From Paludibacteraceae bacterium (GTDB taxonomy: Bacteria; Bacteroidota; Bacteroidia; Bacteroidales; Paludibacteraceae): 64,000 bases of DNA. The stretch is taken from NCBI GenBank assembly GCA_017551675.1, contig JAFZLC010000010.1:1-64000 (forward strand). The letters run 5' to 3'. Below the pieces are notes generated by a model. The model ran no database searches, was not told where the DNA came from, and was given only the letters and a program-made list of their open reading frames with translations. The translations under genes were made by a program, and so were the position numbers. This document shows positions 33,831 through 38,834 of the stretch, one piece after another. Position 1 is the stretch's first letter. Each line of letters begins with the position of its first letter.

Positions 33831-36800
33831 TTAATACTCTTGCCAGCTCTTTATTTGGATATCCTGCTTTGGTTTTTCGCAGAATGCCTTAATAAATGCA
33901 CTTGCCAATCTTGCATTCGTCATCAACGGAATGTTATGATCGATTGCTGAACGACGGATCTTATATCCATTAGTCAACTCTCTCTTCGTATGGTTCTTTG
34001 GTATGTTAATTACCAAATCAACTTGATGTTCTTGCAACAAAGAGATGATGTTTACATTGTGATCATTCTCGTCTGGCCAGCTCACTGCAATTGCATTTAC
34101 ACCATGCTCTACCAAGAAGTTTCTTGTTCCTTCTGTAGCGAATATCTTATATCCGTGAGTGTCCAACAACTTGCATGCATCCAACAAATCTACCTTACCA
34201 CGGATATCTCCTGATGAAACTAAGATACCCTTCTCTGGTACATGGTAGCCTACAGATGTCAATGAGTTAATCAACGCCTCATCAAAGTCTGCTCCTAAGC
34301 ATCCTACCTCTCCTGTTGAAGACATATCCACACCTAAGATAGGGTCTGCCTTATGCAAACGTGCGAATGAGAATTGTGATGCCTTAACTCCGACATACTC
34401 AATATCGAATGTAGATGAATCTGGTTTCTCTACTGGAACATCCAACATAATCTTAGTGGCTGTCTCGATGAAGTTTCTCTTCAATATCTTAGAAACGAAT
34501 GGGAAACTACGTGATGAACGTAGGTTACACTCTATCACCTTAACGGCATTCTCTTTTGCCAAGTATTGAATGTTGAACGGACCACTGATGTTCAACTCCT
34601 TAGCAATCTTCTTACTTACTTTCTTAATCTGACGTACAGTCTCTAAATACAACTTCTGTGCTGGGAATACCAACGTTGCATCTCCTGAGTGAACTCCTGC
34701 GAACTCTACGTGCTCAGAGATAGCGTATTCGATAATCTCACCATTCTTTGCTACTGCATCAAACTCAATCTCCTTAGCATTCTGCAAGAATGAAGATACT
34801 ACCACTGGATACTCTTTTGACACCTTAGCTGCCATCTTCAAGAAGGTATCCATTTGCTCACGGTTGTAACATACATTCATCGCAGCTCCGGAAAGTACGT
34901 AAGATGGACGAATCAACACTGGGAAGCCTACCTCCTTGATGAAGTTGTCGATATCTTCTGAACTGGTCAACTCACCCCAACGTGGTTGGTCGATACCCAA
35001 CTGATCCAACATAGCGGAGAACTTATGACGGTTTTCTGCACGGTCGATGGATACTGGAGAGGTTCCTAATACAGGAACGTTCTGACGATACAACTTCATA
35101 GCCAAGTTGTTTGGAATCTGACCTCCTACAGAGACGATCACACCCTTAGGATTTTCCAAATCGATCACATCCAACACACGCTCGAAACTCAACTCATCGA
35201 AATAGAGTCTGTCGCACATATCATAGTCTGTTGACACTGTCTCTGGGTTGTAGTTGATCATGATAGACTTGTAACCCAACTTACGAGCTGTCTGAACTGC
35301 ATTTACTGAACACCAGTCGAACTCTACAGATGAACCGATTCTGTATGCACCAGAACCTAACACTACGATGTTCTTATCGTTTCTGTATGAATAATCGATG
35401 CTATGTTCGTCTGCACCGTATGTCATATACAAATAGTTGGTCAACTCTGGATGTTCAGAAGCGATAGTGTTGATACGACGAACAAACGGAGTGATACCTT
35501 GTTTCTTACGCAATGAACGTACACGAAGTGACTCCTTCTCCATATTGTTGGATGGGTTCTCTGTGTAACGTGCAATTTGGAAATCAGAGAATCCAAGGCG
35601 TTTTGCCTCTTTCATCACGTCAACAGGAATATCTTCGATCTTCTTGTATTGACCCAAAACTTTCGTATAGTCAACAATATTCTTCAACTTACCAATAAAC
35701 CACTTGTCGATTTTAGTAAGATCAACGATTTTCTCGATAGAATAGCCCTTCTCCAAAGCTGCAGCGATAGCGAAAATACGCATATCGGTTGGGTGAGACA
35801 ATTCTTTATCCAAATCATCGAATTCCAAATCGTGATTACCAACGAATCCGTGCATGCCCTGACCAATCATACGAAGACCCTTTTGCATGATCTCTTCGAA
35901 TGACTTACCGATTGACATGATTTCACCCACAGACTTCATGGATGAGTTGATCTCACGGTCAACGCCAATGAACTTAGACAAATCCCAACGAGGAATCTTA
36001 ACAATGATATAATCAACTGATGGAGCCACATAAGCAGAGTTTGGTGTACCCATCTCACCAATCTGGTCGAGTGAGTAACCCAACGCCAACTTAGCTGCAA
36101 CGAAAGCCAATGGATAACCAGAAGCCTTAGATGCCAAAGCTGATGAACGGCTCAAACGAGCGTTGATCTCAATAATACGATAATCGTTTGTTTCTGCATT
36201 GAATGCAAACTGAATATTACACTCACCAACGATTCCAATATGACGAACCACCTTCTTAGCAATCTCTTGCAATAGGCTGATTTGTTCTTCTGTCAATGAA
36301 ATGATAGGTGCCACAACGATACTCTCTCCTGTGTGGATTCCTAGTGGGTCGAAGTTCTCCATAGGAACAACCGTGAAGCAGTGATCGTTCTTATCACGAA
36401 TTACCTCAAACTCAATCTCTTTCCATCCCTTCAAAGACTCTTCTACAAGGATTTGCTTAGAGTGTGCAAGTGCGCTATCACATAGTTCAATGAACTCCTC
36501 TTCGTTAGCACAAATACCTGAACCAAGACCTCCCAATGCGTATGCAGAACGAACCATCACTGGATATCCTATTCTACGTGCTACAGCCAAAGCATCATCC
36601 ATATTCTCAACAGCTTGAGATACTGGAGTCTTAGCTTGAATCTCATTCAACTTCTTAACGAACAAGTCACGATCCTCTGTAATCATAATTGCGTCTACAG
36701 AAGTACCCAACACTTGTACGCCATACTTCTCCAATGTGCCTGAAAGATAAAGTTCAGTACCACAGTTTAAGGCAGTTTGACCACCGAAAGCTAACAAGAT

Positions 36801-37052
36801 ACCATCTGGTTTTTCTTTCTTTATAACTTCCTCAACGAAATAAGGAGTGATCGGCAAGAAATAAACCTTATCAGCAACGCCCTCAGACGTTTGGATCGTA
36901 GCGATATTAGGGTTGATCAACACCGTGGAGATACCCTCTTCACGCATAGCTTTCAGAGCTTGTGAACCAGAGTAATCAAACTCTCCGGCTTGTCCAATTT
37001 TCAAAGCTCCAGATCCTAGCAAAATAACCTTTTTAACTTTCTGTGATTTCAT
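33831..37052 (-). CDS. carB: Carbamoyl-phosphate synthase large subunit CarB
   Basis: 1073 residues, full length. Two homologous ATP-grasp halves (N-terminal carboxyphosphate domain from GSGALKIGQAGEFDYSG; second, carbamoyl-phosphate-forming domain from GSGAYRIGSSVEFDWCSV at about 560), an oligomerisation domain between them, and a C-terminal MGS-like allosteric domain (about 930-1060) where nucleotides and ornithine act in E. coli. It makes carbamoyl phosphate from bicarbonate, ammonia (delivered by CarA) and two ATP for pyrimidines and arginine. No carA lies beside it in this window: the upstream neighbour is the RavA-ViaA unit. The leader contains a transcription attenuator (37083-37188), and an intrinsic terminator closes the unit, so carB is probably transcribed alone. 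Confidence 0.97.
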   Translation of the reverse strand: MKSQKVKKVILLGSGALKIGQAGEFDYSGSQALKAMREEGISTVLINPNIATIQTSEGVADKVYFLPITPYFVEEVIKKEKPDGILLAFGGQTALNCGTELYLSGTLEKYGVQVLGTSVDAIMITEDRDLFVKKLNEIQAKTPVSQAVENMDDALAVARRIGYPVMVRSAYALGGLGSGICANEEEFIELCDSALAHSKQILVEESLKGWKEIEFEVIRDKNDHCFTVVPMENFDPLGIHTGESIVVAPIISLTEEQISLLQEIAKKVVRHIGIVGECNIQFAFNAETNDYRIIEINARLSRSSALASKASGYPLAFVAAKLALGYSLDQIGEMGTPNSAYVAPSVDYIIVKIPRWDLSKFIGVDREINSSMKSVGEIMSIGKSFEEIMQKGLRMIGQGMHGFVGNHDLEFDDLDKELSHPTDMRIFAIAAALEKGYSIEKIVDLTKIDKWFIGKLKNIVDYTKVLGQYKKIEDIPVDVMKEAKRLGFSDFQIARYTENPSNNMEKESLRVRSLRKKQGITPFVRRINTIASEHPELTNYLYMTYGADEHSIDYSYRNDKNIVVLGSGAYRIGSSVEFDWCSVNAVQTARKLGYKSIMINYNPETVSTDYDMCDRLYFDELSFERVLDVIDLENPKGVIVSVGGQIPNNLAMKLYRQNVPVLGTSPVSIDRAENRHKFSAMLDQLGIDQPRWGELTSSEDIDNFIKEVGFPVLIRPSYVLSGAAMNVCYNREQMDTFLKMAAKVSKEYPVVVSSFLQNAKEIEFDAVAKNGEIIEYAISEHVEFAGVHSGDATLVFPAQKLYLETVRQIKKVSKKIAKELNISGPFNIQYLAKENAVKVIECNLRSSRSFPFVSKILKRNFIETATKIMLDVPVEKPDSSTFDIEYVGVKASQFSFARLHKADPILGVDMSSTGEVGCLGADFDEALINSLTSVGYHVPEKGILVSSGDIRGKVDLLDACKLLDTHGYKIFATEGTRNFLVEHGVNAIAVSWPDENDHNVNIISLLQEHQVDLVINIPKNHTKRELTNGYKIRRSAIDHNIPLMTNARLASAFIKAFCEKPKQDIQIKSWQEY

Positions 37053-37082
37053 ATATCTAATCTCTTAAAATAACTTTCACAC

Positions 37083-37111
37083 AAAAAAAAAGCGGAGGTA
37101 ACAACCACCGC
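37083..37111 (-). terminator. Attenuator hairpin in the carB leader
   Basis: On the minus strand GCGGTGG (37111-37105), loop TTGTTA, CCTCCGC (37098-37092; one mismatch), then nine T (37091-37083). It is an intrinsic terminator placed 30 bases before the carB start and 8 nt after the stop codon of the leader ORF, i.e. a ribosome halted at that stop would cover its 5' arm. Confidence 0.8.
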
Positions 37112-37119
37112 GACAAAAA

Positions 37120-37188
37120 TCAATAGGAATAAAAAAACAATGCCTCTACATCATCCCAGTTCTTGTATATGTAATGAGGTACGGACAT
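37120..37188 (-). CDS. Putative 22-residue leader peptide of carB
   Basis: ATG at 37188, preceded by the purine-rich AAAAAAGAGAAT, encodes 22 residues ending in ALFFYSY and stops with TGA at 37120. The codons near the end are U-rich (TTG TTT TTT TAT TCC TAT), including a run of seven T at 37137-37131, about 20 nt before the attenuator stem. This mirrors the E. coli pyrBI leader, where polymerase pauses in U-rich sequence when UTP is low, letting the ribosome catch up and disrupt the attenuator. UTP sensing here is inference; a Phe/Tyr-tRNA-sensing leader is the alternative, since five of the last six residues are F, F, Y, S and Y. Confidence 0.6.
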   Translation of the reverse strand: MSVPHYIYKNWDDVEALFFYSY

Positions 37189-37241
37189 ATTCTCTTTTTT
37201 ATTACTTTGATTCTAAATAATTCGTTTTTTTATATTGGGTG

Positions 37242-37274
37242 CAAAGTTACACTTTTTTTCATTACACATTGCAA
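37242..37274 (-). promoter_or_regulatory. Predicted carB promoter
   Basis: Minus-strand -7 box TAACTTTG (37249-37242) with TTG (37274-37272) 22 bases upstream as -33 element. Predicted start near 37235 gives a leader of about 180 bases containing the leader ORF and attenuator. Confidence 0.6.
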
Positions 37275-37382
37275 GCGAAAGATGAATTTTTTTCAAAAAA
37301 AATTACAAAGTGCGTGTTTATCGGACTTGCACGAATCTTTCATCCTTTGGTCTATTATTTTCTTCCCTAATGTATTTTCTTC

Positions 37383-38834
37383 TTATCGAGTCAACAGGGT
37401 CAACTCATACTTCTCATCAAAGAACTCATCCCAGTCCTGACGGGCATTCTTCCCTATCTGCAACCCATAAAAGAAGGTGCCGTTTCGACGACTCTCTCGC
37501 ATCTCTTCCAACAAGGTCTGCTCTACCAACGGAATCTTAAAATCACTAATCCACAACACATCCGAACTCATATAACTAGCATGGTGACGCAACAATTCAA
37601 ACATCTTAATCATCATACTCCTCGCATTCGTGTCGCCCGACGCACTCTTCTTGAAATAATCAAACAACCGTGCTCGCTCCTTCTTCACATCTATGGGATA
37701 AACCGACACGGAAAAAGAGAGCAAATACAAATCTCTTCGCTGTCTGTCTGAAATCTCCAACAATCGCAACAACAAAGAGTTGCTTATCTTTTCTGGTTCC
37801 CCTACCATACTTCCTGATGTGTCCAAACAGACAATCATGGGTCCCTTGCGCTTAGCTGGCTGTTGAACCAACTGGTGTATCGGCTTGAAAATCTCACTAC
37901 GATACGAAAAGGTCTGCAACCGATGCGTGACATACTTATATAGAAACAAATCTGACAGTCGTTCATCCGAAGCTTGTGCCACCTCCAACGGCAACATTGA
38001 ATTCAGATCATTGCTAACCGTCACCCCCGACACGTCACTCTTAGATGCATGCGTCATCTGATAGTGTCGTCCACTAGAAACCGTCATCTGATGATGACTC
38101 TCCTCACTGGCAATTCGTCCCATCTTATTGGCTATCTGATTTAGCACAGGGTATCGTTTCTGTACTTGTATAATCTTACGCAACCGTTCGAACAGTGTTG
38201 AGTTCCATATTCCACTCATGGCACTCCATGCTTGCAAGAAATCTTCCTCCGATATGTTATTCTTCTTCACATACTCCTCCACCTCCTGCATCGACACCCT
38301 TGTCTGCTGAGCAACAGACGGACATCTCTGCTCCGTCTCTTCACGACACTGTCGCATAACCTGTTTCATCTCCATCTCTTTCCAATCATCCAAGAAATGT
38401 TGCCACAGAATATCATCGGAAAGATTCTCCTCTTTCTGAAACTTCTGTCCATAATAGGAGGTAAAACCAGGATTGCGTTCTTCCACCTCTTGCATCAAAG
38501 CCTTCCAACCATCCTGTCGCTTGTTGAGTTCCCACTCATGTGCCTCCTTGATCTTATTTTGGATGGATTGGTTTCTCGCAAATTGATATTGATACATCTT
38601 CAATTGTTGGAAGATGAAATCGAGTGTGATATTATAAAACACGGCAGACTGTACATTGTCTTTCAAGACTCTGGTACGAAGCCAAGGGTCGCGCATCATA
38701 GACATAAGGTATGCATAAAGAGGGTCTCCCGCAAAATCAGGATTATCCTCCTTGTCATATATGCCAGCCTCAACAAACTGATCCAACAGACTGACATAGA
38801 TTGCTGGTGATGTCACATTCTCATCACTCGCCAT
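37383..38834 (-). CDS. viaA: ViaA-like von Willebrand factor A domain protein
   Basis: 483 residues. The C-terminal third is a VWA domain with the MIDAS motif DTSGS (in IVCLDTSGSMVGEP), Thr in SGDTNAR and Asp in WISDFKI, so metal binding looks intact. The N-terminal two thirds are helical, as in ViaA. With the MoxR-type ATPase directly upstream and an 11-base overlap of the two genes, this is the RavA-ViaA pair; in E. coli it acts on respiratory complexes and influences aminoglycoside sensitivity. The cellular target in this organism is unknown. No terminator is evident downstream before the carB promoter. Confidence 0.85.
   Translation of the reverse strand: MASDENVTSPAIYVSLLDQFVEAGIYDKEDNPDFAGDPLYAYLMSMMRDPWLRTRVLKDNVQSAVFYNITLDFIFQQLKMYQYQFARNQSIQNKIKEAHEWELNKRQDGWKALMQEVEERNPGFTSYYGQKFQKEENLSDDILWQHFLDDWKEMEMKQVMRQCREETEQRCPSVAQQTRVSMQEVEEYVKKNNISEEDFLQAWSAMSGIWNSTLFERLRKIIQVQKRYPVLNQIANKMGRIASEESHHQMTVSSGRHYQMTHASKSDVSGVTVSNDLNSMLPLEVAQASDERLSDLFLYKYVTHRLQTFSYRSEIFKPIHQLVQQPAKRKGPMIVCLDTSGSMVGEPEKISNSLLLRLLEISDRQRRDLYLLSFSVSVYPIDVKKERARLFDYFKKSASGDTNARSMMIKMFELLRHHASYMSSDVLWISDFKIPLVEQTLLEEMRESRRNGTFFYGLQIGKNARQDWDEFFDEKYELTLLTR

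Follow-up and report, generated by a model that had tools for sequence, protein, structure and literature searches.

A lone carB gene of a Paludibacteraceae bacterium is preceded by a device that, as its parts indicate, is very probably an attenuator with a translated leader. The gene lies in the window, i.e., the whole stretch of 64,000 nucleotides analysed here (contig JAFZLC010000010.1 of assembly GCA_017551675.1, positions 1 to 64,000 of the forward strand). The attenuator is likely to be translation-coupled and of the Escherichia coli pyrBI/pyrE kind, with UTP as the signal, and in many gut and rumen Bacteroidales the leader probably switches a pyrimidine-pathway gene on at low UTP. Sequence and comparison demonstrate a terminator, an open reading frame (ORF) reaching its hairpin, a U-rich approach to it, and the conservation of these traits, together with the lack of a shared amino-acid signal. 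The parts of the locus are listed below in the order of transcription.

37242..37249, minus strand: promoter -7 element TAACTTTG, of the Bacteroidota TAnnTTTG type
37120..37188, minus strand: leader ORF of 22 codons, MSVPHYIYKNWDDVEALFFYSY, ATGTCC...TATTGA, with the stop TGA at 37122-37120
37131..37137, minus strand: U7 run inside the final codons of this ORF, the proposed UTP-sensitive pause region
37112..37119, minus strand: spacer of 8 nt from stop codon to hairpin, UUUUUGUC
37092..37111, minus strand: intrinsic terminator hairpin GCGGUGGU-UGUU-ACCUCCGC, with 7 pairs and one U.U mismatch
37083..37091, minus strand: terminator U tract, U9
33831..37052, minus strand: carB, carbamoyl-phosphate synthase large subunit, a lone copy without adjacent carA (NCBIfam TIGR01369, 1417 bits, cut-off 1027)

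The initial annotation had described this arrangement, from the promoter, the 22-codon ORF, its U7 run and TGA through the 8 nt and the 7-pair terminator with U9 to the 30 nt before the carB ATG (37052), and every part was found in the sequence. A TAnnTTTG promoter consensus is given for Flavobacterium (PMC9723704). Sequence TAACTTTGCACCCAAT is identical in six loci (L001, L005, L006, L007, L008, and L033), with indels in the stretch downstream of it, and the leader ORFs of L005, L006, and L007 have the same start, frame, and length as that of the window. The U fraction in the 40 nt before the hairpin is 0.55, compared with 0.35 in E. coli pyrL. The 51 nt around the hairpin fold with -12.0 kcal/mol (z -3.3; 3 of 200 dinucleotide shuffles at least as stable), and the entire 178-nt leader folds barely better than its shuffles (z -1.6). 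The hairpin is absent from the output of a simple terminator scan, probably owing to the mismatch. An Rfam scan of window positions 36000-38500 returned five weak matches, none at gathering score and no PyrR family among them.

From this arrangement, we infer that the leader is translated, that the polymerase pauses, and that UTP is the signal. RNA polymerase would start at the TAACTTTG promoter, and a ribosome would start on the 22-codon leader. With plentiful UTP, the polymerase would pass the U-rich leader end fast, the terminator would fold before the ribosome arrives, and carB would not be transcribed. With scarce UTP, the polymerase would dwell in the U-rich tract and the ribosome would catch up to the leader stop, or past it in leaders whose ORF reads through the hairpin; with a ribosome at the window leader stop, the 5′ arm of the hairpin would be occluded, and the polymerase would go on into carB.

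The gene behind the leader appears by its family (TIGR01369) to belong to the pyrimidine pathway, and as a lone copy it may serve pyrimidine or arginine synthesis. A second carB of the window genome, 64% identical, is found on a different contig, immediately behind pyrG and carA. Upstream of the window carB lies a ViaA-like gene scoring under the cut-off of that family, and downstream, by eye, what looks like a glycosyltransferase gene. The nearest named records are metagenome-assembled genomes (MAGs) labelled Bacteroidales or Paludibacteraceae, several of them from rumen or horse faeces. In the genus relative L018, carA and the second carB make up a single open frame of 1449 aa (L018:370-4719), and several others are listed with open frames of 1449-1486 aa; the window genome keeps carA and carB separate after pyrG. 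In L044 and L048, carA and the other carB lie downstream of the lone carB and its attenuator, and the leader may there control the whole set.

Conservation was assessed in upstream regions taken from the genus genomes, from GTDB contigs (the best 80 matches listed), and from 149 genomes of the order, and the carB lineage of the window was defined as at least 73% identity to the window protein, the other carB lineage having at most 66%. Among loci with at least 150 nt upstream (L063 and L151 were too short and were left out), 66 of 106 in this lineage, related loci included, have a terminator no more than 130 nt from the start. The same rule, again with related loci included, gave 33 of 1303 other ORF starts and 1 of 28 loci of the other lineage, which is carA-linked in the window genome and was checked for a carA link in only some of the 28. 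The 40 loci of this lineage without a terminator by the 130-nt rule are mixed by title (Muribaculaceae, Porphyromonadaceae MAGs, Massilibacteroides, Bacteroides, Phocaeicola, Paraprevotella, Proteiniphilum, and others), and at least one of them, L089, retains the hairpin, although its U tract is broken. In the genus of the window, the terminator hairpin is at this place in all 15 leaders of this carB lineage from 16 genomes; in the sixteenth genome, G005, only the other carB was seen. The alignment of carB leaders across Bacteroidales that had been proposed as a check thus bears out the annotation, since terminator, ORF reach, and U-richness are conserved in many families of the order.

The 66 terminator-bearing leaders form 45 clusters, all of which were kept for a test of the ORF, including some that seem unrelated to the device, namely L057, where the terminator follows a tRNA-Gln gene, and L043, L062, L086, and L092, which by eye are of another kind. 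In 32 of 45 clusters, the stop of an ATG ORF with 12 codons or more lies at +9 to -15 nt relative to the hairpin start, with 7.5 (sd 2.4) in shuffled leaders, and an ATG ORF reaches the hairpin or beyond in 40 of 45, with 16.3 (sd 3.2) in shuffled leaders. If GTG and TTG starts are also allowed, the counts are 33 against 15.7 expected for a stop near the hairpin and 41 against 30.5 for reaching it. In the window genus, the ORF ends at most 9 nt from the hairpin, inside it, or past it in 15 of 15 leaders, two of which start with GTG. As a control, 102 terminators behind long ORFs were taken from the fetched loci and the window; 15 of the 102 lie at most 9 nt from the stop, none overlaps it, and the median distance is 23. 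In E. coli reporters, termination is repressed by short distances between stop and terminator (PMC4824070).

These distances bear on the alternative that the leader ORF is simply a small-protein gene with its own terminator, carB being transcribed by constitutive readthrough with no regulation. Such a gene would fit a peptide conserved within Bacteroides (MNQQEIRSKYYLHSDVFHPES... and MQPQEMRSKYNLRSNEFHSG...), but the peptide changes from one genus to another, its stop is either inside the hairpin or so close that a ribosome there would reach it, which does not hold for most of the gene-end controls, and the 30 nt before carB leave little room for another promoter. We regard this explanation as very improbable. 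The leader ORF of L008 passes through the hairpin and ends 12 nt before carB, that of L011 ends 1 nt before carB (L049, of the same leader type, has one T fewer than its sister leaders), and read-through ORFs also occur in five Bacteroides leaders (L263, L267, L282, L287, and L300); a sixth, L313, has no stop before carB. E. coli pyrL is similar to these read-through leaders in that its ORF continues for 46 nt beyond the hairpin start; the ORF of the window, by contrast, ends 8 nt short of its hairpin. Because both arrangements occur, the stop position is free provided that the ribosome gets as far as the hairpin, which is what a coupled mechanism would predict.

The approach to the hairpin is rich in uracil. 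The median U fraction in the 40 nt before the hairpin is 0.47 in the 45 clusters, compared with 0.28 in 97 control terminators (p 2e-13), and in the last 20 nt U stands at 0.51 and C at 0.10; thus, U is raised and pyrimidine in general is not. The last 13 codons of 32 ORFs give 416 codons, of which 209 have U in third position (0.29 in carB), and their ratio of UUU to UUC is 48:11, compared with 514:971 in carB. This codon count takes the longest ORF per leader, and for L039 another frame would be preferred. A few leaders (L060, L090, and L096/L100) keep the terminator and are U-poor. The leader end of L060 is also Arg-rich (NFRNKRIRMR), by a switch of the signal to arginine or by chance; sensing of arginine was rejected as a general reading, L060 being a single case.

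The same U-rich codons could be read as amino-acid codons, and the rival that the initial annotation had itself named is attenuation by scarce charged tRNA, which would stall the ribosome at Phe/Tyr codons near the leader end, cover the hairpin, and let carB be read. The window leader ends with FFYSY, and Phe is the commonest leader-end residue (59 of 416), missing there from only 2 of 32 leaders. Across the 32 leaders, however, Phe triplets are equally common out of frame (59 in the frame of the ORF, 57 and 76 in the two others), and peptide ends differ between clusters (FFYSY, VFCSC, SFF, FSFLC, VSLFL, FTFPF, and VVVVI). In L007, whose carB is 97% identical to that of the window, a 22-codon frame without indel carries LVFCSC in place of LFFYSY, and the leader peptide of L046 ends with VVVVI. 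No control-codon run for one amino acid was found in common among the leaders compared, the read-through leaders put no fixed codon at the hairpin, and carB makes neither Phe nor Tyr. Phe/Tyr sensing has accordingly lost ground and is considered improbable. Since U-richness persists while peptide ends diverge and Phe is not enriched in frame, selection seems to act on U as a nucleotide, which is a prediction of UTP-sensitive pausing and not of Phe/Tyr sensing; this favours UTP sensing like that of pyrBI/pyrE. The pyrBI-style reading of the initial annotation is supported in that U-richness is not confined to the Phe frame; on this reading, a terminated leader RNA and sensitivity to UTP would be expected.

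Another rival leaves the attenuator in place and changes its signal: termination would respond to translation in general (initiation or elongation capacity) or to a protein binding the U-rich tract or the hairpin, and UTP would not be sensed. U-rich single strands are common protein sites, the reach of the ORF to the hairpin is the best conserved trait, and the U fraction before the hairpin varies among leaders from 0.17 to 0.62. Moreover, 30 of the 45 leader clusters carry the stem element GCGTT (GCGUU in RNA) in their hairpin, which may thus itself be recognised. Against this, common descent can explain the GCGUU stem, which the window hairpin (GCGGUGGU) does not contain, the controlled gene belongs to the pyrimidine pathway, and U is raised while C is not. 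General or protein-mediated sensing is held to be unlikely, although less so than either of the two preceding rivals. The recurrence of the GCGTT stem across families, while the leaders themselves do not align, may reflect common descent or recognition of the hairpin.

Turning to the genus of G074, Bacteroides, 88 of 119 genomes list a match of at least 74% identity, and 82 upstream regions were taken from these, 77 of them distinct. A terminator is present in 62, and 46 of the 62 leaders have an ORF of at least 20 codons whose end falls in the interval from 9 nt upstream to 40 nt downstream of the hairpin start; 5 of the other 16 read through. Alignment A1 contains 36 of the 46 leaders, hand-picked, with three near-duplicates and seven divergent leaders excluded and two starts trimmed. 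Diversity per codon position is 0.29, 0.32, and 0.42, the third position being highest, and the other two frames are closed in 32 and 34 of 35 leaders, frame 0 being open by row selection. Phe triplets in the 36 leaders number 142 in frame and 77 and 158 out of frame, which is a point for Phe/Tyr sensing as far as this genus is concerned; by contrast, RNAalifold on the same leaders found no mutually exclusive antiterminator helix. It did find, unprompted, the terminator and an upstream hairpin of about YCGRAUG-N5-CAYYCGR, which lies before the U-rich tract and is placed as a pause hairpin would be. In A1, 92.6% of the upstream-hairpin cells pair, two pairs covary, and one pair is GC in 16 leaders, AU in 15, GU in 3, and unpaired in 2. 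The stem with 6 perfect pairs and a 5-nt loop occurs in 24 of the 62 leaders (1.1 in shuffles) and with one mismatch allowed in 46 (6.1 in shuffles); with at most one mismatch, it is also present in 5 of the 10 leaders left out of A1. Three of five measures exceed all 500 shuffles, while the numbers of covarying pairs and of pair types do not exceed them (241 and 500 of 500 as high), and the structure slid by -1 has a covariation score of 0.130, slightly above the 0.121 of the proposed structure. The covariation, in sequences that are related, thus lends modest support to the upstream hairpin in Bacteroides. A pause hairpin throughout the order was rejected, and the proposal is limited to Bacteroides: leaders do fold better than their shuffles (mean z -1.08 and -1.00), but so do segments before gene-end terminators (mean z -0.66, n=72; p 0.23 against leaders).

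A pyrimidine regulon with a shared leader was also rejected: pyrG, pyrF, and pyrD have no nearby terminator, and the pyrB attenuator is U-poor. The 130 nt upstream of the start contain no terminator at pyrG (14 loci), pyrF (15 loci, where L194 is a wrong ORF), or pyrD (15 loci); several of the pyrG and pyrD genes stand behind other genes, and this rule would overlook a leader at a greater distance. At pyrE, no terminator was seen by eye near the start, and in loci L131, L139, and L140 a hairpin with a U run lies behind the upstream gene. In the window genus, pyrB has a terminator in 14 of 15 loci (L113-L127, L120 being the window genome). Its leader is U-poor and A-rich (T 0.15-0.25) and contains very short ORFs, no U tract, and a conserved hairpin of the AACCAATGYGA..TCGCATTGG type followed by U8-9; this terminator starts 52-56 nt before the gene. 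Because this pyrB attenuator is U-poor, U-richness does not mark every pyrimidine attenuator here, and attenuation seems to be used at the first two pathway steps without one common design. Among 29 further pyrB loci of the order, a terminator lies upstream in 18, in several of which it stands, by eye, 8-17 nt after the upstream gene and may be an ordinary gene end. In nine pyrB loci (L229, L230, L231, L238, L244, L245, L247, L248, and L254), the terminator follows soon after the stop of the upstream gene, which ends like ELQEIG.PNL...DDFV.K; by eye, this arrangement recalls rph-pyrE. A uraA-type permease (TIGR00801) was found in none of the 16 genus genomes.

UTP-sensitive reiterative initiation is not part of the proposal; AAUUU follows the promoter in 8 of 27 leaders (those with a recognised promoter, of 45) and in 22 of 173 control promoter-like sites. 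The AAUUU start through which E. coli pyrBI undergoes it is absent from the window promoter (CACCCAATATAA); of pyrBI and pyrE, the motif belongs to pyrBI only. In other respects, the window leader shares with E. coli pyrBI (pyrL) a leader ORF, a U-rich tract, an intrinsic terminator, an ORF that reaches or passes the hairpin, and a pyrimidine-pathway gene, although the gene is pyrBI there and carB here and no sequence likeness was seen. E. coli rph-pyrE is like the window in that only a few nt separate the end of the upstream frame from the terminator and differs from it in that the frame is a full gene, whereas the window has a dedicated 22-codon leader. In pyrBI/pyrE, the polymerase passes U-rich pause sites rapidly when UTP is high, so that the attenuator can form (PMC7818426), and coupling of transcription and translation has been described for pyrL (PMC5021804). 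The leader-peptide attenuators of the trp, his, leu, and phe type likewise place a short ORF and a terminator upstream of a biosynthetic gene, but window-type leaders have no common codon run for a single amino acid, and no alternative antiterminator was seen in the Bacteroides alignment. Gram-positive PyrR-dependent attenuators also act on pyrimidine genes, but Rfam found no PyrR binding element in the scanned part of the window.

Hints of leader peptides have been reported in the phylum. Clues for them upstream of amino-acid operons have been given in Flavobacterium (PMC9723704), and for the Bacteroides thetaiotaomicron transcriptome, small ORFs that recall leader peptides are mentioned in long 5′ UTRs, e.g., BT_4401 (PMC7366714). 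The latter source gave no match for carbamoyl, nor did a survey of premature terminators (PMC2965389) for carB or Bacteroid. In searches of the open-licence literature, no demonstration of transcription-translation coupling in Bacteroidota was found; nor did that literature yield an account of pyrimidine-synthesis control at carB in this phylum, in line with the initial annotation, to which no such control was known. The working principle is known, and we judge that the other phylum, the other gene, and the lack of visible sequence likeness would be what is new.

The Bacteroidales device has apparently evolved separately from E. coli pyrBI. A fuller proposal, to which we give an even chance, is that an independently evolved UTP sensor, consisting only of a translated U-rich leader and a terminator, controls a second carB lineage, that of the window, in many families of Bacteroidales, and that Bacteroides adds a pause hairpin synchronising ribosome and polymerase. 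If true, ribosome and polymerase would be kinetically coupled in Bacteroidota, and pyrimidine supply there would be governed by a repression that needs no repressor, pyrB having an attenuator of a different kind. Furthermore, the leader would provide a native UTP-responsive element for major gut bacteria.
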